Shown in pieces: positions 9,916 through 58,046 of a stretch of 64,000 nucleotides of DNA; the first letter of the stretch is position 1; the number at the start of each line of letters is the position of its first letter. The stretch is from assembly GCF_000244895.1 (NCBI RefSeq), contig NZ_CM001441.1, positions 3,678,226 to 3,742,225 on the forward strand. The letters are read 5' to 3'. Under the pieces are notes generated by a model. It was given only the letters and a program-made list of their open reading frames with translations, was not told where the DNA came from and ran no database searches. Source of the stretch: Desulfosporosinus youngiae DSM 17734 (GTDB taxonomy: Bacteria > Bacillota > Desulfitobacteriia > Desulfitobacteriales > Desulfitobacteriaceae). Both the position numbers and the translations under genes were made by a program.

Positions 9916-11634
9916 TTATCCCTCCCTGCTGCTTTCGATCTGGGTATGATAAATATCCTGATAAACTTCGCAGGACCTCAGCAATTCTTCGTGAGTTCCC
10001 CAGCCCACCTTCCGGCCATTCTCCATGACCAGAATCTGATCTGCGGACATGGCTGTTCCGCAGCGCTGGGTGATGATAATGACGGTCTGCTGATCCTCTT
10101 GATGCTTCAGGTTTTCCCGCACTTTGGCTTCGGTTACGGCATCCAAAGCACTGGTGGCATCATCTAAAATCAGGACCGGAGCTTTTTTCAAGATAGCCCT
10201 GGCCAGGGAAATCCGCTGTTTCTGGCCTCCCGATAAATTGACCCCTGCGCTGCCCAGCAGACTGTCATACCCCTCCGCCATCTCCACGATAAAGTCAGCC
10301 TGGGCTTTTTCTGCGGCCTGCTTAAGCTGATCCGGAGAGGCATGCTGATTCCCCCAGCGGAGATTTTCCGCCACAGAGCCGGAAAACAGCATGGGTTTCT
10401 GAGGAACTATGGCTATATTGCTGCGGATTACGTCGCTGCCCAGCTCTTTGAGATTAGAATTGTCCAGGATGATTGCACCGCTGTCCACATCGTAGAAGCG
10501 GAGCAGCAGCCAGGCAATGGTTGATTTGCCGCTTCCCGTCGGGCCGATAATCGCCAGGCTTTCTCCGGGATTCACCGTGAAGGAAAGCTCCCGGATTGCC
10601 GGAACTCCGCTGCCCTTGGGGTAAGCAAAGGTCACCTGATCAAAGGTGATCCGGCCCTGCAGTTTTCCGGTTGCCTGGCTGGGGGCGAAATCTTCCCCAC
10701 TGTCCAGGACTTCCCTGATGCGGGCCGTCGAAGCCTTGGTACGCACGAACATGGTAAAAACATTGGTGATCATAATCAGGGAGATCAGGATCTGAGCCAT
10801 ATAGATGGTAAAGGCCGTCATATCCCCAACATTGGCCAGGTCCCTCATAAACAATCTGCTGCCCAGATAGATCACTGCCGTGGTTCCGACCCCGACGACC
10901 AGGGTTAAAAAAGGCGTGATAAGGGTAATCACCATTTGAGAGGATATTCCCCGCTGCCTTAAGTTCCGATTCTCCTCGTCAAACTTTTCGATCTCCTTAC
11001 CGTAAGTACCAAAGGCCTTGACCAGCCGGACCCCGATTAAATATTCCTGCACCTTCAAATTGACCTGATCCATAGCCATTTGCAGTTGATAAAATCTGGG
11101 ATAGCTGAGTTTCATACTGATATAAATCAAGAGGGTAACCACAGCTACCACCCCATAGATAATCAGACTGAGCCGGAAGTTCAGCAAACTGGCCAGGATA
11201 ATACTGCCCAAGCCGGTCAGGGGGGCCTTCAGAAAAATACGCATAATGCCATTGACGAACTGGACGATTTGGGCAGTGTCATTGGTCATTCTGGTGATCA
11301 GGGAACCCGCTTCGATTTTATCCGCACTGTCTTCTGAAAAAGAGATGATTTTCTTGAATAAGTCTGACCGTAAATTCGCCCCCATTCTTTGGGAAACATG
11401 GCTGGCTAGAATATTTCTGGTCACGGCAAAACAAGCCCCGATCAAGGTTACAGCCAGCATCAGGGTGCCCCAGTGATAAACCCCGCTCAGAGAGCCTTGT
11501 TCAATTCCGTTGTTTACGATATGGGCCATCAGGGTAGGGCCCAGCAAATCGCAGACTGCTTCCAGGGTTACACACAAAACCCCTGCCAAAAAGGGCACTT
11601 TGTACCTTCTGAAATAATTACGGTATAACTTCAT
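9916..11634 (-). CDS. Heterodimeric ABC exporter, degenerate-site half (BmrC type)
   Basis: A 572-residue half-transporter with six transmembrane segments and a nucleotide-binding domain: Walker A GPTGSGKST, signature LSGGQKQR, Walker B VLILDDATSALD. The catalytic Glu is replaced by Asp, and the H-loop His by Gln (IITQRCGT). These substitutions mark the non-hydrolysing site of asymmetric exporters such as BmrCD and TM287/288. Its partner at 8017 keeps canonical residues. The ribosome binding site before ATG 11634 is weak (GCAGGTC), consistent with expression being tuned by the leader upstream. Confidence 0.93.
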   Translation of the reverse strand: MKLYRNYFRRYKVPFLAGVLCVTLEAVCDLLGPTLMAHIVNNGIEQGSLSGVYHWGTLMLAVTLIGACFAVTRNILASHVSQRMGANLRSDLFKKIISFSEDSADKIEAGSLITRMTNDTAQIVQFVNGIMRIFLKAPLTGLGSIILASLLNFRLSLIIYGVVAVVTLLIYISMKLSYPRFYQLQMAMDQVNLKVQEYLIGVRLVKAFGTYGKEIEKFDEENRNLRQRGISSQMVITLITPFLTLVVGVGTTAVIYLGSRLFMRDLANVGDMTAFTIYMAQILISLIMITNVFTMFVRTKASTARIREVLDSGEDFAPSQATGKLQGRITFDQVTFAYPKGSGVPAIRELSFTVNPGESLAIIGPTGSGKSTIAWLLLRFYDVDSGAIILDNSNLKELGSDVIRSNIAIVPQKPMLFSGSVAENLRWGNQHASPDQLKQAAEKAQADFIVEMAEGYDSLLGSAGVNLSGGQKQRISLARAILKKAPVLILDDATSALDAVTEAKVRENLKHQEDQQTVIIITQRCGTAMSADQILVMENGRKVGWGTHEELLRSCEVYQDIYHTQIESSREG

Positions 11635-16348: not shown

Positions 16349-17182
16349 ATGAAACAATCCGAATACCTGCGGGAGCTGAAGGAAAACCTTGAGGGGAAAC
16401 TGGCACCGGAAACAGTAAAGGACATTTTGGCTGATTACGAAAGTTTTTTCCTCGCCGGCAGAGAAGAGGGAAAAACGGATGATGAAATATCCGATGGACT
16501 TGGATCGCCTGCTTTTTTGGCGAAATCATTACTTGAGGGGCAAGCGGCAACTGAAAATGGACTGACGGTTAAGCCTGATAAACACATTGCCCATCCGGGC
16601 CGCCGCTTGTGTGCTTACTTGATTGATGCTGCCATCGCCTTCCTGCCGGTTCTGGTTCTCACATCTTTCTTAGGAAGCGCCATTATGTCCTTTTATATGT
16701 TTATTTTCTATCCCGCTCCCCTCTCCGGAGCCTCCGTTTTTTTGAGCTATGCCGCCTATGGCGAATATAAAACGACTGAGAGCTATCCTGTTGAAGTCCA
16801 AGTGCAACCGGAAACCAACCGGGAAATCGTCCGGGAAGGCGGCTCTAATCCTGAAAGGGTCCAAAAGGACTTCCCCAAACCTACTGCGGTTAAAATTGCC
16901 GCCGCCTGGTTTGCCCTGGCCTTTTATTTGCTTTATTCTTTGGTGGCCACTCTTCTCTTCCGAGGACAAACTGTCGGCAAAAAACTGCTGCGCCTTAAAG
17001 TACGCCGTTCGGATACCGGTCCGGTAAGCAGCGGCAGTATTTTTCTCCGCGAACTATTGATGAAAACTGTGATCAATTCCATTCCTCTGGTACCGCTGAT
17101 CTCGCTGGTGACGATTTTATATAGCGAAGAGCATAAAACGCTCCACGACATGCTGGCCGATACCATTGTCGTCAATGTCTAG
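16349..17182 (+). CDS. HAAS (DUF1700)-RDD fusion membrane protein
   Basis: A 277-residue protein. Residues 1-70 match the HAAS/DUF1700 helical signalling domain (LRELKENLEGKLAPETV, DYESFFLAGREEGKTDDEI). Residues about 85-275 form an RDD domain with PGRRLCAYLIDAAIAFLPV, three to four transmembrane helices and GQTVGKKLLRLKV. HAAS domains normally sit on membrane proteins controlled by PadR regulators, and a PadR gene follows 12 bp later. Function unknown; RDD proteins have been linked to ion or osmolyte transport. It ends with TAG. Confidence 0.85.
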   Translation: MKQSEYLRELKENLEGKLAPETVKDILADYESFFLAGREEGKTDDEISDGLGSPAFLAKSLLEGQAATENGLTVKPDKHIAHPGRRLCAYLIDAAIAFLPVLVLTSFLGSAIMSFYMFIFYPAPLSGASVFLSYAAYGEYKTTESYPVEVQVQPETNREIVREGGSNPERVQKDFPKPTAVKIAAAWFALAFYLLYSLVATLLFRGQTVGKKLLRLKVRRSDTGPVSSGSIFLRELLMKTVINSIPLVPLISLVTILYSEEHKTLHDMLADTIVVNV

Positions 17183-17194
17183 GAGGTCTGCACT

Positions 17195-17509
17195 ATGGAT
17201 ACCCAAATGAAAAAAGGGATACTGGAAATGTGCATCCTGTACCGGCTGAAAGATAAGGAGCTTTACGGGTACGAGCTGATGAAATCGATCCGTCAGGTTT
17301 TTCCTGATGTTTATGAGGGATCAATCTATACCATTCTCCGCCGCTTAAACGCCACAGGCCATACCCAAATTACCCCCAAAAAATCAGTAACCGGCCCGGA
17401 CCGCAAATACTACAGCCTCACCCCGGCGGGTTTGGAATATTTAGGCCAGATGCTGGCCGAGTGGAAAGAGATCCTGGACAGTGTATCTGCCTTGGGAATT
17501 CAGATTTGA
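17195..17509 (+). CDS. PadR-family transcriptional regulator
   Basis: A 104-residue winged-helix repressor of the short PadR subfamily: MKKGILEMCILYRLKDKEL, YGYELMKSIRQVF and YEGSIYTILRRL are the DNA-binding helices, and GPDRKYYSLTPAGLEYL the wing and dimer helix. It follows the HAAS-RDD gene by 12 bp with AGGAGG in between, so the pair is one operon that it likely autoregulates. Confidence 0.93.
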   Translation: MDTQMKKGILEMCILYRLKDKELYGYELMKSIRQVFPDVYEGSIYTILRRLNATGHTQITPKKSVTGPDRKYYSLTPAGLEYLGQMLAEWKEILDSVSALGIQI

Positions 17510-24800: not shown

Positions 24801-26219
24801 TTATACCTTAAGTTTATCAGAGGGTAATGGTGTTTTAAGAGACACATCATCAATATCTTGCGGAACAGGATATTTAATTGCCGAATAAATGATGACCAGA
24901 TTAAGGACAGCAATTCCTATAATAAAGGTCCAGGCAATAGAAGCCGGTACCGAAGGCAAGAGCCATGCTTTAAAAAAGCCATAGGAAGCAAAAACTATAA
25001 ATCCCGGAGCAATATACTTAACCAGGACATTCCACCACCGGCCAACCGGAATCACCGCTCCATAATTCAAGACATTCCTTCTGACCCTATCAGCTCCCCA
25101 GGCCCAACCTACAAAGATTAAGATAAATAATCCGCCAAGGTCAATGCCATAAGTACCTATCGTCTGATCAAGCCAATCCAGTGTATTCTTGCTCAGACAG
25201 GAAGGGATGGCTGCCAAATTCCATAAGACAAAAACTGCTGAAATCACCTGCTTACGGCTGAATCCCCACTCTTCAATCAAGGGGGTGAGGATGGCTTCCA
25301 GGCAACCGATAGCCGCTCCCAGCCCCGACAAGGCTAATGCGCCGTAAAACAAAACCATATAGATTTGTCCATAGGCCATAGTCTTAAACATCTCCGGCAG
25401 AACCAAAAAGGAAAGACTGCTGCCCGAATTCAAAGGCACATTGAAAACCACAGTGGCAGGAATAATTGCCAGTCCGACCAGCCATGAGATGGCTCCATCC
25501 AATAAACCGGCCTGGGTTATTGTCGAAAAAGTATCTTCGCCTTTCTTCATATAACTGCCCATAGCGGTCATTATCCCCCAGCCAAAACAGCCCGACCAAA
25601 GTGCCTGGCCAATGGCCTGCATCCAGGTATCATATCTGAACAAATAGCTCCAATCCGGAACCAGATAATATTCCAGGCCTTTCCCGACACCTGGCAGAGT
25701 TAAGGTCTTCATTACCAGGGCCAGAATAACTAAAAATAAGACGGGTCCCATGACTTTAGCCGCCTTTTCAACTCCGTTGACAATACCAAACCAGCATACT
25801 CCGAAGGCAATGGCATTTACCAAAACGGCCCAAAAAATAACCTGGGGTGAATCAATAAACACATCGAAAAAAGCCTGGGGTGAGGCCGCCTGCCAAACTG
25901 CTCCGGAAAAACTGGTGAAGAAATAGCGGACAACCCAGGATATGATGACATTGTAATAAACGAGCACAACTACATTCAGGCATAGGATAATAATACCGCA
26001 AATCCGCCAGATCCGGCGCCGGCCAATGGCGGTGAAGGCACCAATAACTCCCCGCCGGGAAAATTTACCCATACAGATTTCACACTGATTTCCAATGTTA
26101 ACCACAAATACAATAGCCAGCAGATAAACGACAACAAAGGCAGCGCCTCCGTATTCAGCGCAGAGATAGGGAAAACGCCAGATGTTTCCTAATCCCAGAC
26201 TGGTCATGATTACCACCAT
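24801..26219 (-). CDS. Neurotransmitter:sodium symporter (NSS/SNF) family transporter
   Basis: A 472-residue transporter with about eleven helices; SLGLGNIWRFPYLCAEYGGAAF is the unwound TM1/TM2 substrate site of LeuT-type proteins. The first ATG (26219) cuts TM1 in half. Codons upstream of it stay open and encode EAFTSRIGGL, the expected start of TM1, back to about 26283. There a run of seven G separates this frame from an ATG at 26289. Translation may start at a non-AUG codon (ATA 26270 with AAAGGGGGGG six bases upstream), or the G-run hides a frameshift. It probably imports a methylated amine or amino acid with sodium. Confidence 0.88.
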   Translation of the reverse strand: MVVIMTSLGLGNIWRFPYLCAEYGGAAFVVVYLLAIVFVVNIGNQCEICMGKFSRRGVIGAFTAIGRRRIWRICGIIILCLNVVVLVYYNVIISWVVRYFFTSFSGAVWQAASPQAFFDVFIDSPQVIFWAVLVNAIAFGVCWFGIVNGVEKAAKVMGPVLFLVILALVMKTLTLPGVGKGLEYYLVPDWSYLFRYDTWMQAIGQALWSGCFGWGIMTAMGSYMKKGEDTFSTITQAGLLDGAISWLVGLAIIPATVVFNVPLNSGSSLSFLVLPEMFKTMAYGQIYMVLFYGALALSGLGAAIGCLEAILTPLIEEWGFSRKQVISAVFVLWNLAAIPSCLSKNTLDWLDQTIGTYGIDLGGLFILIFVGWAWGADRVRRNVLNYGAVIPVGRWWNVLVKYIAPGFIVFASYGFFKAWLLPSVPASIAWTFIIGIAVLNLVIIYSAIKYPVPQDIDDVSLKTPLPSDKLKV

Positions 26220-26331: not shown

Positions 26332-26574
26332 TTATTTCCAAGCCAATAGTCCTGCCTTGACACAGAACCAAATAACCCAGCTGGTCAATACACAGACTGA
26401 AGCAATGCTTAAGATTTCTTTCCGCTTTCCAAATTTTAAATGCTCATAGGGAACGCCTTGCCATTCCTCTTGACCAACGGGGTCCCGTTTTGGTTGGTAA
26501 AGAAATAGAGCAATAGGTACTACCCATAAGACAAGAATTACGACGAGCAACCAAAACCACGCACTGCCGGACAT
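26332..26574 (-). CDS. Small two-helix membrane protein beside the NSS transporter
   Basis: An 80-residue protein with two membrane helices (FWLLVVILVLWVVPIALFLY and EILSIASVCVLTSWVIWFCV) joined by a polar loop of about 30 residues. It precedes the NSS transporter in the same operon. Small membrane subunits that partner NSS carriers are known (MetS of Corynebacterium MetPS), so an accessory role is plausible, but it has no recognised family similarity that I can see. Confidence 0.7.
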   Translation of the reverse strand: MSGSAWFWLLVVILVLWVVPIALFLYQPKRDPVGQEEWQGVPYEHLKFGKRKEILSIASVCVLTSWVIWFCVKAGLLAWK

Positions 26575-26669: not shown

Positions 26670-27467
26670 CTAGAATTCCATTAATCCCGCACGATGGGCC
26701 TTTAGATAGCTCATACAATAATCATCCCGGCCGTTCAAAGTTTCCGCAGTAATAAGGCTGGCCATCATTCGCTTATCCAAAGGATTAATAATCAGTCCAT
26801 CGAGGCCCTTGGCAACAGCCATAATAGCAAAGGCCTGGTTAATAAATTTACGATTGGGCAATCCATAAGAGATGTTCGATAATCCACACATGGTATGGAC
26901 CCCTTTAAATTGAGTAGAAATTGCTTCAATGGCATTGAGGAATTCAATTCCGAAATCTTTGTTAGTGGCAACGGGCTGAACTAGGGGATCAACGTAGATA
27001 TTGCCGATGGGAACATTGTTTTGCACTAATCCGTTAATAAGGCGGTCTGCAATCTTAAGCCGCTGATCCGCCGTTTCAGGCATTCCCTCATCACTCATAC
27101 AAAGGGCAATAACTTTAAGATCAGTTCCTGCGATAACAGGAAGCAACACATCGTAGCGAGCTTTTTCTAACGAAATGGAGTTAATCATTGCTGTGCCTTT
27201 GTGCACAGAAAGCGCGGCTTGAATCGCCGCCGGGTCCGGACTATCTAAGCAACAGGGAGCATCCGTAGCTTCTTGGACCGTTTGGACGAGCCACTGAAGG
27301 TATTCCGATTCTTTACCTACAAAAATACCGGCATTGACATCAATGAAATGTGCTCCGGCTTCGTGTTGGTCGATAGCGACTTTTTTAACAGCCTCAGCAT
27401 CTTGAACGCGTATAGCTTCTCCGATAGCCTTACGGCTTGCATTAATGAGTTCTCCAACAATTAACAT
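26670..27467 (-). CDS. Methylcobamide:tetrahydrofolate methyltransferase (MtgA-like, pterin-binding)
   Basis: A 265-residue TIM-barrel protein of the pterin-binding family shared with MetH and AcsE. Markers are MLIVGELINASRKAI, GAHFIDVNAG near residue 38, CCLDSPDPAAIQAAL near 70 and IYVDPLVQPVATNKDFG near 150. It should take the methyl group from the methylated corrinoid protein and give 5-methyltetrahydrofolate, as MtgA does in glycine betaine demethylation by Desulfitobacterium. ATG 27467 has GAGGAGG seven bases upstream. It lies directly after the corrinoid protein gene. Confidence 0.92.
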   Translation of the reverse strand: MLIVGELINASRKAIGEAIRVQDAEAVKKVAIDQHEAGAHFIDVNAGIFVGKESEYLQWLVQTVQEATDAPCCLDSPDPAAIQAALSVHKGTAMINSISLEKARYDVLLPVIAGTDLKVIALCMSDEGMPETADQRLKIADRLINGLVQNNVPIGNIYVDPLVQPVATNKDFGIEFLNAIEAISTQFKGVHTMCGLSNISYGLPNRKFINQAFAIMAVAKGLDGLIINPLDKRMMASLITAETLNGRDDYCMSYLKAHRAGLMEF

Positions 27468-27515
27468 AATTTTCCTCCTCACAATTATGCATCCTATTAG
27501 TTTTTGCGGTAAGTT

Positions 27516-28145
27516 TTACGCACTAAGTAATTCCTTGCAAAGGTCCACAGCCGAGGCGGCATCCGGTGCAAATCCATCGGCACCTATTTGGTTTGCATAA
27601 TCTTTAGAGATAGGAGCACCGCCAACAATGCATTTGACGTTTAATCCTTCTTCTTTCATGAGTTCGATCGTATCCTTCATTCCCGTCATGGTTGTGGTGA
27701 GCAGGGCTGACATCGCTACGATATCGGCTTTATGTTCTTTAACCGCTTGAACAAATCCTTCAGGAGCAATGTCAATTCCTAAATTTACAACCTTAAAACC
27801 GCCGCTTTCCAAGAGCATGCCCACTAAGTTCTTACCGATATCATGAAGGTCGCCTTTTACTGTCCCCAGCACAATCGTACCCATAGCAGGCAGATCAGTA
27901 TCCGTCATGAGAGGTTTTACAAGGGCAATGCCTGACGCCATTGCTTTAGCAGACATTAATACTTCCGGAACAAACATGTCTCCCGCTTTAAAGCGCGGAC
28001 CAACGATATTCATTCCGGCAATTAATCCTTGGTTGATAATATCCAAAGGTTCCGTGCCAGCCTTAATAAATTCTTGTACCTGTTCCTTAACTTGTGCCTC
28101 TTTTCCCGCAACAACATTTTGGGCCAGGGACTCAAAATTTGCCAT
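27516..28145 (-). CDS. Corrinoid protein of the MttC/MtgC family (copy 2)
   Basis: A 209-residue two-domain methyltransferase cognate corrinoid protein: N-terminal helical cap (residues 1-85) and C-terminal Rossmann-like B12 domain. GDLHDIGKNLVGMLLES carries the DxHxxG lower-ligand motif, with His the expected cobalt ligand; MSALLTTTM and VIVGGAPIS-like CIVGGAPISKDYANQIGADG complete the site. It shuttles the methyl group from an MttB-type enzyme to the MtgA-like protein encoded just downstream. The ribosome binding site is GGGGGAAG. Confidence 0.95.
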   Translation of the reverse strand: MANFESLAQNVVAGKEAQVKEQVQEFIKAGTEPLDIINQGLIAGMNIVGPRFKAGDMFVPEVLMSAKAMASGIALVKPLMTDTDLPAMGTIVLGTVKGDLHDIGKNLVGMLLESGGFKVVNLGIDIAPEGFVQAVKEHKADIVAMSALLTTTMTGMKDTIELMKEEGLNVKCIVGGAPISKDYANQIGADGFAPDAASAVDLCKELLSA

Positions 28146-28189: not shown

Positions 28190-29455
28190 TTACATTTTAG
28201 TATCGACATTCGTAGTAACGTTCGCAGTAATATTTGAAAACGCTGTCTTTTTTAATTTTAGAATTCCCAAGGCAGCCGCCAGACCAACAACGGAAATAGC
28301 AATCAGGAAGGCAAACATGAAATTGTAGCCGTTATTGCCGTAAGTATCTAACCAATAACCAAATAAAGGTCCTAAAACGATGTCCGCTAAATAGCCGATG
28401 ATGGAGGCTGTGCCGATGGCCAAACCGGTGTAATATCGCGGAACTTTGGACTCCTCAACAGTGGACCACATAATACCCTTCATCCCGGCACCGACAAATG
28501 CTACCAATAGCATCAGGACGATTACTACACCTAAAGAAGGTTTTGCGGGTAAATTGAGAAAGATGAATAACATGACAATAATAAAAATATAACCTATGGT
28601 TAAGACTCTGCAGGGTGATTTCCATTTGTCAGCAATGAACCCGCCGACCGGGCCGCCCAGCAGTTTTACTCCGTAGGTTCTGATAATCGCCAGTGCCCCG
28701 GAGAAAGTAACTGTAATTCCCACAACGGCAGTTAAATACGGGGTCAGATAGGTTTGCCCGACATATAAGCCATAGGTAGTCATAATAACAAGAGCGATTA
28801 ACCAAACGATGGGCTGTTTTAAGACAAAGATCACGTCTTTCAGACCAACAACCGGTTTGTCTTCATTGGTTTCTACCATATATTCTTCATATAATAACCA
28901 GGTTAGAATACCCGCTAAGATACTAAAGCCCGAATAGATGAAAACAACCATTCTGAAGCCGGCTACGGGATCCATATATCGTCCGAAGATTCCCAAAGCA
29001 ATAAAACTAATGACCACTGTGGACAGGCCATACCCGGCTTCAAAGAAGCCATACATTTTTCCCTGGTCATTCTTATCGCCTAAGAGCCTGACACCCTTTA
29101 ATGCTGCTGCCCAATATGCAAAACAATTGGTAAAAGCAAACGCAACCCAGACGATCCAGCCTACTTTCATCGTCATATTTATACCGAACCAGGTCGTTAG
29201 GAGTCCCTGCGCTACCAAAGAAACAGAGATGGTCGTCCGGGCCGGAAACCTGTCCGCTACCCAGCCTCCGGGAATGAAGGTAAAAATACCGATTGTTACA
29301 TAGACGGAGACCATGGCACCCAGCTCGAAGTTCGTACACTGCAAGGCTGTCATCATTGGATCATAAAACACATATTTTGCATACGGAAGAGTAAACATTG
29401 ATGCATACCCAAAGGACAGAACAAATAAGGCCAGCCACTTTTTAAATGCGTTCAT
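28190..29455 (-). CDS. MFS transporter of the methyltransferase cluster
   Basis: A 421-residue major facilitator with about twelve helices. GGWVADRFPARTTI near residue 68 is the loop 2-3 signature, and GGFIADKWKSP near 260 the loop 8-9 repeat. ATG 29455 is chosen because AGGGAGG stands directly upstream; earlier codons of the frame run into a fragment of a corrinoid gene and are not part of this protein. It probably carries the methylated substrate or product; the exact cargo is unknown. Confidence 0.9.
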   Translation of the reverse strand: MNAFKKWLALFVLSFGYASMFTLPYAKYVFYDPMMTALQCTNFELGAMVSVYVTIGIFTFIPGGWVADRFPARTTISVSLVAQGLLTTWFGINMTMKVGWIVWVAFAFTNCFAYWAAALKGVRLLGDKNDQGKMYGFFEAGYGLSTVVISFIALGIFGRYMDPVAGFRMVVFIYSGFSILAGILTWLLYEEYMVETNEDKPVVGLKDVIFVLKQPIVWLIALVIMTTYGLYVGQTYLTPYLTAVVGITVTFSGALAIIRTYGVKLLGGPVGGFIADKWKSPCRVLTIGYIFIIVMLFIFLNLPAKPSLGVVIVLMLLVAFVGAGMKGIMWSTVEESKVPRYYTGLAIGTASIIGYLADIVLGPLFGYWLDTYGNNGYNFMFAFLIAISVVGLAAALGILKLKKTAFSNITANVTTNVDTKM

Positions 29456-29486
29456 AGACATCCTCCCTAATTTTAGGCATTTGATC

Positions 29487-29546
29487 CTGCTTGACAAGAT
29501 CCACTGTCGAGGCAGCATCCGGGGTGAACCCGTCAGCGCTGATGTC
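29487..29546 (-). pseudogene. 3' fragment of a corrinoid protein gene
   Basis: Read on the minus strand, 20 codons give DISADGFTPDAASTVDLVKQ. The intact protein at 27516 ends GADGFAPDAASAVDLCKELL, so this is the C-terminus of a third corrinoid protein, cut off from the rest of its gene. The interspersed repeat begins within about 50 bp of the break. Confidence 0.8.
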
Positions 29547-29590
29547 ATTTGTTAAGGGTTGAAGCAAGTTTTTTAAGCATAGCAGATTCT

Positions 29591-29866
29591 ATGCCGCTGT
29601 GCGGCACCACTGATGAGTGAAAATAGGTCTCTCGGGTCGGGCAGCTTCTCCCACATCCGTTCACTCAGCACTCCGAGGCTCACCCACTCGCCGGCGCGGG
29701 ACTCCGCCAAACCTCTGGGTAATACCTGATGTGAACCCGTGGCTCCGTTTCCCCGCACCGGCTTGTGGGCTTTTATCGCCTCTCCATGCGATGAGTTCAC
29801 TTCTGTGGGATAAGCTGCCTTCCTTTGAGGTCTACAGATTCTTTGAATGTTTTGGGGTTTTTTCAG
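29591..29866 (-). repeat. Long interspersed repeat, copy 1
   Basis: About 276 bp that recur, inverted, at 57624-58006. Shared blocks include TTCAAAGAATCTGTAGACC, GCATGGAGAGGCGATAAAAG, ACGGGTTCACATCAGGTATT and GTGGGAGAAGCTGCCCGACC. It is GC-rich, carries no convincing ORF and has no transposase. Copy 1 lies between the amber-containing mttB gene and the corrinoid fragment; the remaining 29867-29992 holds only a plus-oriented hairpin at 29907-29953. Confidence 0.85.
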
Positions 29867-29992: not shown

Positions 29993-31462
29993 TTATTTTA
30001 AGCCATAGTCTGCTTCGGCGTTTGCTACAATTTCTTCCAGCGCTGCTTCCACTCCATTCGCTAGAGGATCGGGTTGGTACGTATTATAGAGATGCTGGGC
30101 TTCTTCATAAGCCCTCTCAGTAAAGTCCTTCGCACCTTTGTCCAGCCAGGATTGTCTCATAGAGCGATCGATTAACTTGTTTTGAGATTGTGCAGTTTTG
30201 AAATGACGGAATGTATGTTCCTGGGTTAAGAATTCACCAGCGGCACCTACCGACTGGATAATATCCACAGCCATAGTTTCATCATTCACATCAATTCCAC
30301 CAACTGCTTTTTTAATCATCCGGACCATTTCGTTATCCATTAATAACTTGGCATAATCAAAAGTAATACCTAACTCAAGCATGCCGAGCCCATAGATAAT
30401 ATTTGCTCCGGATAAAGAGGTAAGCAAAGCACTCAGAGTTGATTCATGAGCAGCCTGCCCATCAGGAAGTTTGCTGTCTGCCTATCCGCCGGCTACCCAG
30501 CTGGGCAGCAAGTAATATTGAGCAAGTTTTGCCACAGCGCCATTGATCATTCCCAGCTCCGGAGCTCCAACAGCTGCCGTAGTGCTTTTCATATCCATGA
30601 TGGTCGTCGAACTGCCATAAATGACGGGTGAACCTTTACAAGTCAATTGACTAAGGATGATTCCGCTCAGAACTTCCGCATTATGAGTAATCAGGGTTCC
30701 TGCCAAAGTTACGGGTGACGATCCGCCGGATAAGGCCATTGATAAAATGTTGCAGGTAATCCCGGCTCGTGCACTTTCAATAATGACTTCACAACATTCG
30801 GGAACTAACTGTAACGGACTTGTAGGACACACAATTGAGCTATAGATAGGGCGCTTTTTGAAGTTTTCCTTTCCAACCACTGCTTCTCCCATTTTGACCA
30901 GTGTCCGCAGGTTCTTTCCGTTGCCGCATCCCATGAAAAGGTGCTTTGAGGTATTTTTAAAGGCAACCTGGGCCTCATGAAGGGGAGCTACAAGGGGCGG
31001 AACGTCTTGTGCTGAAACCGCTCTCTCATAGACATCAATCTCACTCATGGCATCACACATACGTGCAGTGTCAGCGACGTCCTGCTTATTCGACGGCCGG
31101 TATTTTTTTGTAAAGAGGTCTATTATATTGATTCCTTCACCGAAATTCGTAAATCCGGTTCGATTACTCTCAATCACAAAATCATTCTTTGGGTTTCTGG
31201 CCGCTAATAATACGGTACTTGGCGCCGACTTAATAGCATCCTCAGCCACATAGGGCGGAATCCGAACCGTGTTGGTACTCCGTTCAACTATGGCACCGCC
31301 GGCATCAAAAATATCCTGAGCTTCTTTGCTGGTTATGCGGACTCCGGTATGCCATAAGACATCAAGGGTCGCACAATGAATGGCATAGAGTTCATCGTCT
31401 GATAACACATTGAGTCCAAATCCGCCGTACTGTCGAAATCCCGCACGCAAATTTCTCTTCAC
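29993..31462 (-). CDS. mttB: Trimethylamine-type methyltransferase MttB with in-frame amber (pyrrolysine) codon
   Basis: Reading through a single TAG at codon 327 gives a 489-residue protein, the usual MttB length. Before the TAG the sequence ends LLPSWVAGG; after it comes [15 protein letters not shown], which aligns with SKIADGQSGYEHL of the amber-free homologue at 31478. In methanogen MttB the UAG near residue 334 encodes pyrrolysine, which binds the methylamine. GTG 31462 has GGGGGG seven bases upstream. It should transfer a methyl group from trimethylamine or a related amine to the corrinoid protein. Function requires pyrrolysyl-tRNA machinery, which is not in this window. Confidence 0.92.
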
Positions 31463-31477
31463 CTGTATCCCCCCTTA

Positions 31478-32893
31478 TCAAGCTTGTTTATACACTTGTT
31501 CGATAATACGCTCAAATTCAGCGTTTACCTCTTGGCTTACGGGTTCGACTTGATGAGTTGATAACAGTTCTTTAGCAATACGTTTTGCTTTCTCTTCAAC
31601 CTTCTCACCCTTTAGTTCCCATTTTTCAAAAGGCTGTCTGTCACAAAGGGGCGGGACCCATAACTCTCCTGCTCTAAGAGCATTTCGTGTATGTTTGTGT
31701 TCAAGGAAATTACTTTTGCTTCGAATAACTTCATCAACAACAGCTACGGCTAGTTTTTCTTCCGTAATCTCGTTCTTTTTAATGGTTCTTTTTATCACAG
31801 ACGATAATTCATTATCCATTACCAGCATTGCGAAACACGAGGTCAGACAATTATCCAATGACCCGGCAGCTGCCAGAATATCGGTTCCAATGAGGGCCGG
31901 CATGAGAGCATTATAGAGATGCTCATACCCACTTTGTCCATCGGCAATTTTAGAAGCTCCGGAAAAACCGGTAGCTGTCGAGGGTATTCCATAATGCCTT
32001 GCCAATTGAGTTGAAGCCGCTGCAGCCAAACCCATTTCAGGCATAGCCCATAACCCGAGTCCGGACCGCATATCCATGAAGGTCACCCGTGGAGACATGA
32101 TAACTGGGTGTCCCGGCCGAATCATTTGACTGGCAACCACTCCGGCCAGGATTTCCGCATTATGCATTGCGACACAGCCGACTAAGGTCATCGGCCCCGT
32201 TGAGCCCATCATGGGGCAAGGAATAACTCCTAAAGGTAACCCGGCTTCTACAATATCCACCAGGGCTTCTGCCGGATGCAATCCATATTCCAGCGGGCTG
32301 ATGGAAGATACCTCGATATAGGCCAGGGGCTGCTCCTGCAGTTTTTCTTTCCCGCCTGCTGCTGTAACCAGAACCTCAATAATCGATTTCATCTCATGGC
32401 TTGACTCAGCACAAATCCTTAAAGGTTTTGTCGAATTGCGAAGCATGGTGATGGTTTCTATGGTTACGATTCCTTCCTGGGGAACATCTCTTGGGAAGAC
32501 GGGAGATATAAGATCAATATTCTCTAAAGCATCAGCCAGGCGGCAAAAGTCTTCAAGGTCTTTAAGCAGGCAATCCCGTTTTTTCCCGGTATCGAGATCC
32601 ATAATGGAGGGGGTTCCTACACAGGTTTGGGCATAAGCTTGGCGCGAACCCATCTCAACGACGTAACGGGGATCTCTTCCATAGATTTTGAACTGTTTTG
32701 GAACCGTCTTCAGCGCTTTCTCGATAACGTCCTGAGTAAATAGAATCCGGTCATTTTCTTCCTGGCATCCGTTGTCCAAAAGGACTTTTTTGAAGCGCTC
32801 AGAGATTGTATGAATCCCCGTGCGTTTTAACAGTTCCAGACTTGCTTCATGGACCTGAATCAGTTCTTCTTCTGAAAAATAATCCGAACGCAT
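31478..32893 (-). CDS. MttB-family methyltransferase without pyrrolysine (MtgB-like)
   Basis: A 471-residue TIM-barrel methyltransferase of the MttB superfamily. RTGIHTISERFKKVL starts the barrel; TCVGTPSIMDLDTGK, MLRNSTKPLRICAES and the C-terminal block around ATGFSGASKIADGQSGYEH are family features. No in-frame amber is present: Ser stands where the neighbouring mttB has TAG. Non-pyrrolysine members such as MtgB demethylate quaternary amines like glycine betaine. It lies between its likely corrinoid partner (32926) and the amber-containing paralogue, 15 bp upstream of the latter. Confidence 0.93.
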   Translation of the reverse strand: MRSDYFSEEELIQVHEASLELLKRTGIHTISERFKKVLLDNGCQEENDRILFTQDVIEKALKTVPKQFKIYGRDPRYVVEMGSRQAYAQTCVGTPSIMDLDTGKKRDCLLKDLEDFCRLADALENIDLISPVFPRDVPQEGIVTIETITMLRNSTKPLRICAESSHEMKSIIEVLVTAAGGKEKLQEQPLAYIEVSSISPLEYGLHPAEALVDIVEAGLPLGVIPCPMMGSTGPMTLVGCVAMHNAEILAGVVASQMIRPGHPVIMSPRVTFMDMRSGLGLWAMPEMGLAAAASTQLARHYGIPSTATGFSGASKIADGQSGYEHLYNALMPALIGTDILAAAGSLDNCLTSCFAMLVMDNELSSVIKRTIKKNEITEEKLAVAVVDEVIRSKSNFLEHKHTRNALRAGELWVPPLCDRQPFEKWELKGEKVEEKAKRIAKELLSTHQVEPVSQEVNAEFERIIEQVYKQA

Positions 32894-32925: not shown

Positions 32926-33564
32926 TCAGCAGATCAGACTTTTAGCGACTTTAACAGCGGTAATCGCATCTTCCGCGTATCCATCAGCCCCTATCTTATC
33001 TGCCCACGCTTGATTGATAGGAGCACCTCCAATGATGACCTTAATTTGATTTCTTAAGCCTTCTTCTTGGAGAATCTCAATAATTTCTTTTTGTTTGTCT
33101 ACGGTCGTTGTCAATAAGGCTGAAATACCGAGTATATTGGGTTTGAGTTCTTTGACCTTCTCAATGAATATTGCTGAAGGGACATCCACTCCCAGATCAA
33201 CAACCTCAAAGCCCGATGTTTTAAGCATCATGCCAACGATGTTTTTACCTATCTCATGTAAATCCCCTTGCACGGTTCCAATCAGCACTTTTCCGCTGGA
33301 CTCTTGTTGGACTCCATCAAGCAGGGGTTCTAAGATCTTAATTCCCGCATCCATAGCCTTAGCCCCTAAGAGAAGATCAGGAAGGAAAAACGTCCCTGCC
33401 CCAAAATTGTCACCTACGATTTGAATTCCCCGGGTAAGTCCTTCATTAATAATTACTAAGGGCTCTAATCCCTCCCCGACAGCCTGTTGAGTCAGCTCTT
33501 GTACCAGAACATTATCTCCCTCTACGACTGCTTCAGAAATCCTGGCTAAAATTCCCGTTTCCAT
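32926..33564 (-). CDS. Corrinoid protein of the MttC/MtgC family (copy 1, first gene of the cluster)
   Basis: A 212-residue corrinoid protein: helical cap, then B12-binding domain with GDLHEIGKNIVGMMLKTSGF (DxHxxG motif), ISALLTTTV and VIIGGAPINQAWADKIGADG. Being first behind the sigma-54 promoter and next to two MttB homologues, it is the likely methyl acceptor for one or both. AAGGAGG stands before ATG 33564. It differs clearly from the copy at 27516, so the cluster carries two distinct corrinoid proteins. Confidence 0.95.
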   Translation of the reverse strand: METGILARISEAVVEGDNVLVQELTQQAVGEGLEPLVIINEGLTRGIQIVGDNFGAGTFFLPDLLLGAKAMDAGIKILEPLLDGVQQESSGKVLIGTVQGDLHEIGKNIVGMMLKTSGFEVVDLGVDVPSAIFIEKVKELKPNILGISALLTTTVDKQKEIIEILQEEGLRNQIKVIIGGAPINQAWADKIGADGYAEDAITAVKVAKSLIC

Positions 33565-33610: not shown

Positions 33611-33626
33611 AGCAAGATTAATGCCA
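33611..33626 (-). promoter_or_regulatory. Sigma-54 (-24/-12) promoter of the methyltransferase cluster
   Basis: On the minus strand TGGCATTAATCTTGCT matches the -24/-12 consensus TGGCAC-N5-TTGCW with GG and GC ten bases apart. It lies about 47 bp before the first start codon of the cluster and faces the divergent sigma-54 activator gene. Confidence 0.85.
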
Positions 33627-33847: not shown

Positions 33848-33956
33848 ACCACAACGAATACTCAATCTATTCTGACTTATTATTAGTTAACAAAGAAGGA
33901 ATTTGACGTTTGATGTGGAAAATTTCTTTATCTGGGCGAAAGGAGGCGGCGTTTCT

Positions 33957-35408
33957 GTGAATAATTTTGATCAGCATGATCTTAAAAGTCTAATGGAAGA
34001 AAATAAGTTATTGAAAAACGCCTTAAATAGTTTAGAGGACTATATAGAAATCATCGATACGACCGGAACGATTATTATTTCTTCCACCGGATTCGAAAAA
34101 ATAGATGGTTTCGACCGAAAATTCATCGTCGGCAGGGATATTCGTGAAGTATATGACTTAAATGATCAGAATTGCCAGATGTTAGCCTCCATTCGGGAAA
34201 AGGTCCCTAAGAAAAACTACTATATGAAATACTTTTCACGCAATGGAAAACATGTTCATGTCATGATGGATATTTTTCCAGTGTTTCCAGAGGGGAATTC
34301 AAATAAAGAGCCCATCGGTTCTATCGCAATATCACGAGATAATTCCAAAATTCAAGAACTCTCCAGCAAATTAATTGACCTGCAGCGGGAATTACTAACT
34401 GTGAAAAGTAAAAAGAAAAGCGGAACCCGCTATACTTTTGACGATATTTTAGGGCAAAGCAGATCCATTAACTCCCTGCGGGCAGCCGCACGTAAAATTT
34501 CATATTCGGATTCACGGGTGCTTATCCTCGGGGAAACAGGTACAGGCAAGGAAATGATAGCCCAAAGTATTCACAATCAGAGTATAAGAGCCAACGATCC
34601 CTTTGTGGCAATTAACTGCAGTGCTATACCCGAAACATTATTGGAAAGCATTTTCTTCGGTACGGCAAAAGGTTCTTATACCGGGGCAGAAGATAAATCG
34701 GGATTATTTGAAGAGGCCGGAAATGGAACTCTTTTTCTGGATGAAATCAACTCCATGAGTCTCCCCCTCCAGGCAAAAATCTTACGGGTTTTAGAAGATC
34801 AAACCTTTCGCCGAACCGGCAGTAATAAAGCAACCCCTTTCAAAGCACGAGTAATCAGTGCGATGAATCTTAGTCCTGATGAAGCCATCGAAAAAGGTCA
34901 GCTTCGAAGTGATCTCTTTTACCGCTTAGCCGCGGTAACTTTAGAATGTCCCCCACTTCGCGAACGTGAAAACGATCTGGACCTGCTGCTGATGTCATTT
35001 ATCGATCAATACAACAAATTATTGGGTAAGAACATCAGAACATTATCTTTGGAAGCTTCAGATATTTTACATAACCACTCCTGGCCGGGTAATATTCGAG
35101 AATTCAGGCATACCATTGAACATGCCATGAATCTTGCCGAAGCGACTGATACTGAATTATCGGCAATGTATCTCCCTCAACACTTAAAAAAACAGAACAA
35201 TAAAATGATTCCTCAAATTACCCATAATACAGATTTAAAAATGCTGCTTACTCAATATGAAAAAGAAATTGTTATCCAAAGCCTTAAAAAGAATAATGGG
35301 AATATTAATAAGGCGGCAAAGCACCTTAATGTTTCCCGCCAGAATCTTTTTTATAGAATTAAGCGTTTAAATATTAATATCTATCACCCTAATCCTGATA
35401 TTACTTAA
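33957..35408 (+). CDS. Sigma-54-dependent transcriptional activator (PAS-AAA-Fis)
   Basis: A 483-residue enhancer-binding protein. The N-terminal PAS-like sensor (residues 15-130; EIIDTTGTIIISSTGFEKIDG) is followed by the AAA+ domain: GETGTGKE Walker A, GTLFLDEI Walker B and GSYTGA, a variant of the sigma-54-contacting GAFTGA loop. A Fis-type helix-turn-helix ends it (NINKAAKHLNVSRQNLFYRI). GTG 33957 is preferred for its AAAGGAGG; a TTG at 33903 lacks good spacing. Divergent from the cluster, it should switch on the -24/-12 promoter when its PAS domain senses the substrate. Confidence 0.93.
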   Translation: MNNFDQHDLKSLMEENKLLKNALNSLEDYIEIIDTTGTIIISSTGFEKIDGFDRKFIVGRDIREVYDLNDQNCQMLASIREKVPKKNYYMKYFSRNGKHVHVMMDIFPVFPEGNSNKEPIGSIAISRDNSKIQELSSKLIDLQRELLTVKSKKKSGTRYTFDDILGQSRSINSLRAAARKISYSDSRVLILGETGTGKEMIAQSIHNQSIRANDPFVAINCSAIPETLLESIFFGTAKGSYTGAEDKSGLFEEAGNGTLFLDEINSMSLPLQAKILRVLEDQTFRRTGSNKATPFKARVISAMNLSPDEAIEKGQLRSDLFYRLAAVTLECPPLRERENDLDLLLMSFIDQYNKLLGKNIRTLSLEASDILHNHSWPGNIREFRHTIEHAMNLAEATDTELSAMYLPQHLKKQNNKMIPQITHNTDLKMLLTQYEKEIVIQSLKKNNGNINKAAKHLNVSRQNLFYRIKRLNINIYHPNPDIT

Positions 35409-57621: not shown

Positions 57622-57787
57622 CCCTGAAAAACACCCCAAAACCATTCAAAGAATCTGTAGACCACAAAGTCAGGCAGCTTCTCCCACAGGAGTGAACTCA
57701 TCGCATGGAGAGGCGATAAAAGCCCACAAACCGGTGCGGGGAAACGTAGCCACGGGTTCACATCAGGTATTACCCGGAGGTTTGGCA

Positions 57788-57847
57788 CGAAAGTGTCCGG
57801 TGGACAGTTTCGCCGAAGCGGCTATCTCCAAAGAATACTTATCCGCT
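57788..57847. repeat. Nested insertion with two hairpins
   Basis: CGAAAGTGTCCGGTGGACAG with TTTCG closes a hairpin at 57788-57812; AGCGG and CCGCT close a second one at 57817-57847. The sequence is absent from copy 1. A related TGTCCAGTGGACA stands at 18372-18384 after the DUF218 gene. Confidence 0.6.
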
Positions 57848-57896
57848 GAAGGTAGTCCCGCGCCGGTGAGTGGGCGAGCCTCGGAGTGCTGAGTGA

Positions 57897-57934
57897 CGAA
57901 GACACTGTCTTCGCACGAGTTAGCTTTCTTGCAG
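57897..57934. repeat. Small palindromic element B
   Basis: CGAAGACACTGTCTTCG followed by CACGAGTTAGCTTTCTTGCAG. It shares its core and right end with element A at 57535-57583 and interrupts the long repeat exactly where copy 1 reads TGAACGGATGTGG. Confidence 0.75.
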
Positions 57935-58046
57935 GATGTGGGAGAAGCTGCCCGACCCAAAGGGCCTATTTTCATTCATCAGTGGTGGTGCCGCACAGCG
58001 TCATAGGAGTCTGATAGTACAAAAAGCAGCTGACAGCCTTGATTCT

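Follow-up and report, generated by a model that had tools for sequence, protein, structure and literature searches.

We conclude that the mttB gene of Desulfosporosinus youngiae DSM 17734 almost certainly encodes a pyrrolysine-containing trimethylamine:corrinoid methyltransferase, in which the UAG at codon 327 would be read as pyrrolysine (Pyl). The gene lies in a stretch of 64,000 nucleotides of the genome, analysed here in full and called the window (Table 1). Positions 30482-30484 read CTA on the plus strand, i.e., TAG on the minus strand that carries mttB; when this codon is taken as a residue, window positions 31462 to 29993 form a single frame of 489 codons from GTG to TAA with one TAG. 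Under the standard code, the open reading frames (ORFs) flanking the TAG have 326 and 144 amino acids, the one on the 3' side with a TTG start. The joined protein matches NCBIfam profile TIGR02369 from position 1 to 469 of 469 (cut-off 525 bits). An earlier note on this DNA had rightly described the frame as unbroken on both sides of a single TAG at codon 327. The open stretch after the TAG spans 162 codons in mttB versus a median of 14 for the 63 ORF-based genes that end in TAG in a 464-kb sample of this genome, mttB included. The open frame and the profile and PDB matches of mttB are far beyond chance.

In the PDB comparison, MttB matches the Methanosarcina barkeri enzyme (7xcm, 7xcl), also represented by entry 7xcn, over residues 2-483. 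Codon 327 aligns opposite the X of 7xcl, which is residue 334 by its place in the chain, and the TAG therefore falls at the column of Pyl334, as expected in the earlier note, which had proposed this alignment as a check. The accessible part of the structural study places Gly110 and Tyr364 of M. barkeri MttB around the Pyl ring (PMC9842639); their equivalents in D. youngiae are Gly108 and Tyr357, whereas Thr111 of M. barkeri is replaced by Glu. Trimethylamine as the substrate is assigned by homology. The archaeal M. barkeri enzyme feeds methanogenesis, whereas the D. youngiae enzyme has an MtgA-like partner of the methyltetrahydrofolate type.

Table 1. Features of the mttB region (window positions) and composition of the pyl loci of the D. 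youngiae genome.
Feature	Position	Strand	Evidence or content
mttB, trimethylamine:corrinoid methyltransferase	29993..31462	-	489 codons, one in-frame TAG; TIGR02369 722.7 bits; 7xcm E 1.4e-123
In-frame TAG, codon 327	30482..30484	-	position of Pyl334 of M. barkeri MttB
Rfam PYLIS_3 (RF02510) match starting at UAG	30385..30484	-	78.6 bits, gathering 38
TAG-free MttB-superfamily paralogue	31478..32893	-	Ser (TCC) at Pyl column; TIGR02369 367 bits, below cut-off
Methyltransferase cognate corrinoid protein, first gene of run	32926..33564	-	TIGR02370 230.1 bits, cut-off 215.3
Sigma-54-type promoter-like site upstream of first corrinoid gene	33612..33626	-	TGGCATTAATCTTGC
Divergent PAS/sigma-54 activator	33903..35408	+	PF00158 3.2e-61, PF13426, PF02954
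Dispersed repeat between mttB and MFS gene, outside the system	29570..29866		
MFS transporter	28190..29548	-	PF07690, 5.3e-25
Second corrinoid protein	27516..28145	-	TIGR02370 205.9 bits, just below cut-off 215.3
Methyltetrahydrofolate:corrinoid methyltransferase (MtgA-like)	26670..27482	-	NF005719 346.6 vs 259 bits
80-aa ORF	26332..26574	-	no Pfam match
Sodium:neurotransmitter-symporter-family (SNF) transporter	24801..26219	-	PF00209, 2.5e-50
pyl locus A			T, Sc, B, D, Sn
pyl locus B			B, C, D, Sn
pyl locus C			B, D, Sn
pyl locus D			T, C

An alignment of the MttB superfamily (74 frames, from 98 found minus near-copies) has TAG at the Pyl334 column in 45 frames. The clade of the window mttB in a quick tree comprises 52 rows; beyond the 45 TAG rows, it includes seven in which this column holds Q, V or I, two of the seven being the same gene of genome G040. 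The counterparts of Gly108 and Tyr357 are retained in 45/45 TAG rows and 7/7 Q/V/I rows; among the 22 distant TAG-free rows, Tyr357 is found in none and Gly108 in two. The closest relatives of the window MttB are other TAG-containing MttBs. The adjacent paralogue, to which the earlier note had likened the protein after the TAG, is indeed TAG-free; it is, however, a distant relative (29% identical) that scores below the TIGR02369 cut-off.

The TAG-free MttBs near the Pyl group carry Gln, as CAG or CAA (L137, L138, L139, L140), Val (L135) or Ile (L136). Since seven rows of the clade have no TAG, not every enzyme of MttB shape requires Pyl. The position of these proteins inside the Pyl clade of the quick tree makes Pyl loss possible. 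We do not claim secondary loss: when 63 of the 74 rows were analysed (ten loci, 11 rows, omitted as near-copies, fragments or long branches), an approximately unbiased (AU) test did not reject monophyly of the Pyl rows (p 0.443).

Selection was estimated against the orthologue in the sister genome G018, which is 96% identical and keeps the TAG. On the 5' side of the TAG, 324 codons contain 8 amino acid differences (dN 0.012, dS 0.377); on the 3' side, 159 codons contain 12 (dN 0.036, dS 0.262). The same pattern, with dN much smaller than dS on the 3' side of the TAG, holds for the four further pairs of TAG genes with both values computable; in the two paralogue pairs, dS was saturated.

The D. 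youngiae genome holds four TAG-bearing MttBs versus nine TAG-free matches of the superfamily. The three others, with one TAG each (genome positions 1738799, 4392846 and 669682), lie in different places and are 53-61% identical to the window MttB. MtbB also has one in-frame TAG (genome 3492278; Pfam PF09505, 699.5 bits), and a search of the genome for MtmB gave no match at E <= 0.001. Five methyltransferase genes of this genome therefore look split under standard annotation.

All six components of the bacterial Pyl-encoding set (pylT, pylSc, pylSn, pylB, pylC and pylD) were found in the genome, a single contig of 5,660,978 bases, with tRNA-Pyl(CUA) present and PylSc, PylSn, PylB, PylC and PylD scoring above curated cut-offs; an absence of pyl genes would have spoken against the proposal of the earlier note. 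PylSc (genome 667835-668560; 412.7 bits, cut-off 178) is the sole match above its cut-off. A tRNA-Pyl(cta) lies at 667618-667689, and a second copy, alike at 71/72 bases, at 2896485. There are three PylSn (677609, 1672290 and 4388152), two PylC (2897559 and 1670205), and three PylB and three PylD, the last two as counted in the pyl loci that were read and all above cut-off. These genes are spread over four loci (Table 1), none of which is complete, unlike loci L060, L061, L062 and L064, where all pyl components form one cluster.

In a survey of 45 genomes of the family, mttB matches were accepted at E <= 1e-120. PylSn occurred in 29, PylSc in 27 and an mttB match in 26 genomes; of the 56 matches in the latter, 50 carried a single TAG and six lacked it, with at least one TAG copy per genome. 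TAG-bearing mttB was present in 23/27 genomes with PylSc versus 3/18 without it (Fisher p 7e-6, uncorrected for relatedness). PylSc thus occurred together with TAG-mttB in 23 genomes and alone, lacking an mttB match at this threshold, in four; mttB occurred alone in three, whose completeness is 76, 79 and 85%, and neither in 15. The gene set, the TAG at the Pyl334 column and the 45/74 frames support the view, put forward in the earlier note, that a bacterium makes a pyrrolysine-containing MttB.

Genes of this genome regularly end in TAG and the 144-amino-acid ORF has its own possible start codon, as would be expected if the TAG ended a broken gene or a functional 326-amino-acid protein, the ORF behind it being a remnant or a separate gene. 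Such a reading is highly improbable: dN/dS is low after the TAG, the catalytic Tyr357 lies beyond it on the 3' side, the same column holds TAG in 45 of the 52 clade rows (Q, V or I in the other seven), the pyl set is complete, and decay would not leave the same stop in place across four paralogues and the orthologues. We give just as little weight to read-through by an ordinary near-cognate tRNA or by some other suppressor. Near-cognate decoding of UAG can in principle occur to some extent, but the cell has a dedicated tRNA-Pyl(CUA) with PylSc and PylSn, and the residue coincides with Pyl334 while its Gly and Tyr partners are retained.

A third alternative is compatible with pyrrolysine at UAG 327 and would refine it: Pyl is inserted, and the window MttB demethylates a substrate other than trimethylamine. 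The four TAG copies are divergent and scattered in the genome, and therefore need not share one substrate; moreover, apart from G018, none of the 45 genomes has a match closer than 66% identity. Yet the score for the equivalog TIGR02369 is far above its cut-off and both Gly108 and Tyr357 are retained, which makes another substrate unlikely, if still worth keeping in mind.

Reading of UAG 327 as pyrrolysine has to coexist with the use of TAG as an ordinary stop, which the earlier note had also pointed out. In a sample of 464 kb (the window plus 20 stretches; ORF-based genes of at least 120 amino acids, taken longest first), TAG ended 63/334 genes, the window mttB included, and the stops cited in that note, at 17182 and 21236, were confirmed. 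The fraction was 22/85 in the pyl-less congener G009 (Fisher p 0.17), a small control of 130 kb. A second stop followed within 10 codons in 43% of genes ending in TAG, 51% of those ending in TAA and 59% of those ending in TGA. By this comparison of 464 kb with 130 kb we found neither avoidance of TAG nor an excess of back-up stops. Because TAG is a frequent ordinary stop too, UAG suppression must be limited or tolerated and termination competes at UAG 327; the 326-amino-acid MttB product is likely made as well.

At least 60 open codons after the TAG were found in 7/63 TAG-ended genes, the window mttB among them. The stretches behind the TAGs of genes L168:12509 and L171:6829 look non-coding by codon use; the open frame is a separate gene, CbiJ, behind the TAG of an ABC transporter (L170), and a separate aminotransferase gene behind that of a polysaccharide gene (L172). 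Behind an RDD-family gene (window 16349) that ends in TAG at 17182, the frame continues into a separate PadR-family ORF (17195-17509), and read-through would fuse both. A PHP-domain protein at L171:10063-11334 (gene L171:10573) has 169 coding-like open codons behind its TAG, with no Pfam match there, and fits neither pattern. The sample covers 464 kb of 5.66 Mb, and the genome may hold more UAG genes.

TAG also ends some of the pyl genes themselves, namely pylD1, pylSn2 and pylSn3. In locus B (L029:8897-10075), pylD2 ends in TAG and continues in frame into pylSn2, so that read-through would yield a PylD-PylSn fusion. A similar in-frame passage from pylD to pylSn occurs in L037, and in L052 with two more TAGs between. 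TAG accounts for 9/44 pylD stops, a rough count since some matches start upstream of the start codon. By informal judgement, such in-frame passages from pylD to pylSn are no more than chance.

The gene run containing mttB also encodes two corrinoid proteins, transporters and the MtgA-like protein, whose gene has an ordinary TAG end with another stop 3 codons later. The divergent PAS/sigma-54 activator is likely the regulator of this run. The sigma-54-type site upstream of the first corrinoid gene is weak evidence alone because the window holds 3 exact matches to TGGCAN6TTGC, this site included. The dispersed repeat of about 300 bases behind mttB recurs near 57624-58016 and has at least 42 matches in the genome (40 of 119 candidates scored); in the matching stretch of G018, only 32 bases of the repeat query were matched.

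From these genes a pathway can be proposed, largely by homology. PylB, PylC and PylD would convert lysine into pyrrolysine, PylSc and PylSn would charge tRNA-Pyl(CUA), and the ribosome would insert Pyl at UAG 327, where termination competes with it. The imine of Pyl, beside Gly108 and Tyr357, is expected to bind the methylamine. A methyl group would pass from there to the corrinoid protein encoded in this run, and the MtgA-like protein would then transfer it to tetrahydrofolate. Expression of the run would probably be turned on by the sigma-54 activator.

The Rfam PYLIS_3 match suggested a decoding element, and we rejected this candidate. Compared with synonymous-codon shuffles, folding revealed no downstream RNA signal at the mttB UAG: the 34 codons starting at the UAG folded no more strongly than the shuffles (mean z -0.12), none of 23 representatives of the 45 TAG rows fell under z -2, and other offsets gave mean z values from -0.94 to +0.13. 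TAG-free rows folded much alike (27 rows, mean z -0.34). We judge the PYLIS_3 match at mttB to be protein conservation and not an RNA element. An earlier study likewise found no common structure in mttB (PMC3639795).

The pyl genes stem from more than one lineage. In the PylSc tree, lineage I unites D. youngiae with D. nitroreducens and UBA8487 and has Sporomusa malonica next to these, 17 rows of the genus Desulfosporosinus form lineage II, and G010, G016 and G020 form a distant lineage III. The PylB and PylSn trees (quick trees, PylSn being short and of low support) assign locus A to lineage I, and loci B and C to lineage II. D. youngiae thus has a PylSc of lineage I only, with one set of PylSn, PylB and PylD from lineage I and two from lineage II; no PylSc remnant was found in the stretches searched around loci B and C. 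The only PylSc of the sister G018 belongs to lineage II and sits in a full lineage II cassette, and its lineage I locus retains pylT, pylB, pylC and pylSn. Directly behind pylT, this locus carries a scrap of the pylSc 3' end (28 bases, 96%, E 2e-8; L151 near 10340-10370), and it is otherwise without PylSc. In the lineage III locus of G014, an ORF (L153:8608-9441) without a Pfam match starts like the PylSc of relatives and continues like the next downstream gene; it looks like a PylSc with its core deleted. The scrap in G018 and this ORF suggest that cassettes which used to be fuller have lost PylSc.

PylSn outnumbers PylSc in 9/29 genomes of the genus, one of which (G032) is 79% complete, and PylSc outnumbers PylSn in one genome of the family (G040), 78% complete; several surveyed genomes are drafts, and absences are surer in the one-contig genomes G000 (D. 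youngiae), G014 and G018. G016 has three PylSc, one per lineage, each with its own tRNA-Pyl (L142, L143, L144). TAG-bearing MtmB genes stand beside lineage III cassettes (L142:3656-5047 and L153:12171-13562; PF05369, 733 and 734 bits). We tentatively suggest, while regarding it as somewhat doubtful, that a single catalytic PylSc serves a mixed-lineage Pyl apparatus in D. youngiae, with PylSn acting across lineages or having a task apart from its own PylSc.

The window mttB belongs to a known type of gene, and the Pyl system has been reported earlier from Desulfosporosinus. In the accessible parts of the literature, PylRS is reported from Desulfosporosinus and Sporomusa (PMC4427996), and a table of organisms lists D. 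meridiei as well as D. orientis, whose tRNA-Pyl is verified (PMC3639795). Unlike in D. youngiae, no scattered mixed-lineage sets are described for Desulfosporosinus, Desulfitobacterium and Sporomusa in those parts (PMC3639795, PMC4427996). Strain DCMF, a relative in the Peptococcaceae, has 82 mttB copies, with Pyl in 23 of 96 methylamine methyltransferases, and the portion of its report at hand describes one pyl cluster (PMC6778437), in contrast to the four loci of D. youngiae. According to the part available, Methanomassiliicoccus luminyensis resembles D. youngiae in having more than one pyl cluster with separate pylC and pylT copies, but its two clusters are identically organised (PMC3941956), whereas in D. 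youngiae each cluster is incomplete and two lineages occur side by side. In a described case of more than one Pyl lineage in one cell, there are two mutually orthogonal pairs; D. youngiae, in contrast, has one PylSc and near-identical tRNA copies. The incomplete, scattered loci and mixed-lineage pyl sets are thus the less ordinary aspect of this genome, and we found no description of such a layout in the open-licence literature, as far as its text was accessible.

Collectively, these findings add a further bacterium in which UAG is very probably translated as pyrrolysine and at the same time remains a frequent stop. If a single PylSc does serve the mixed apparatus, repeated loss of PylSc with retention of PylSn would mean that PylSn functions across lineages or has a separate task, possibly the holding or dosing of tRNA-Pyl, with UAG suppression tracking each methylamine operon. 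The scattered mixed-lineage pyl genes of D. youngiae offer a chance to test the interchangeability of PylSn, a question that bears on tools for genetic code expansion.
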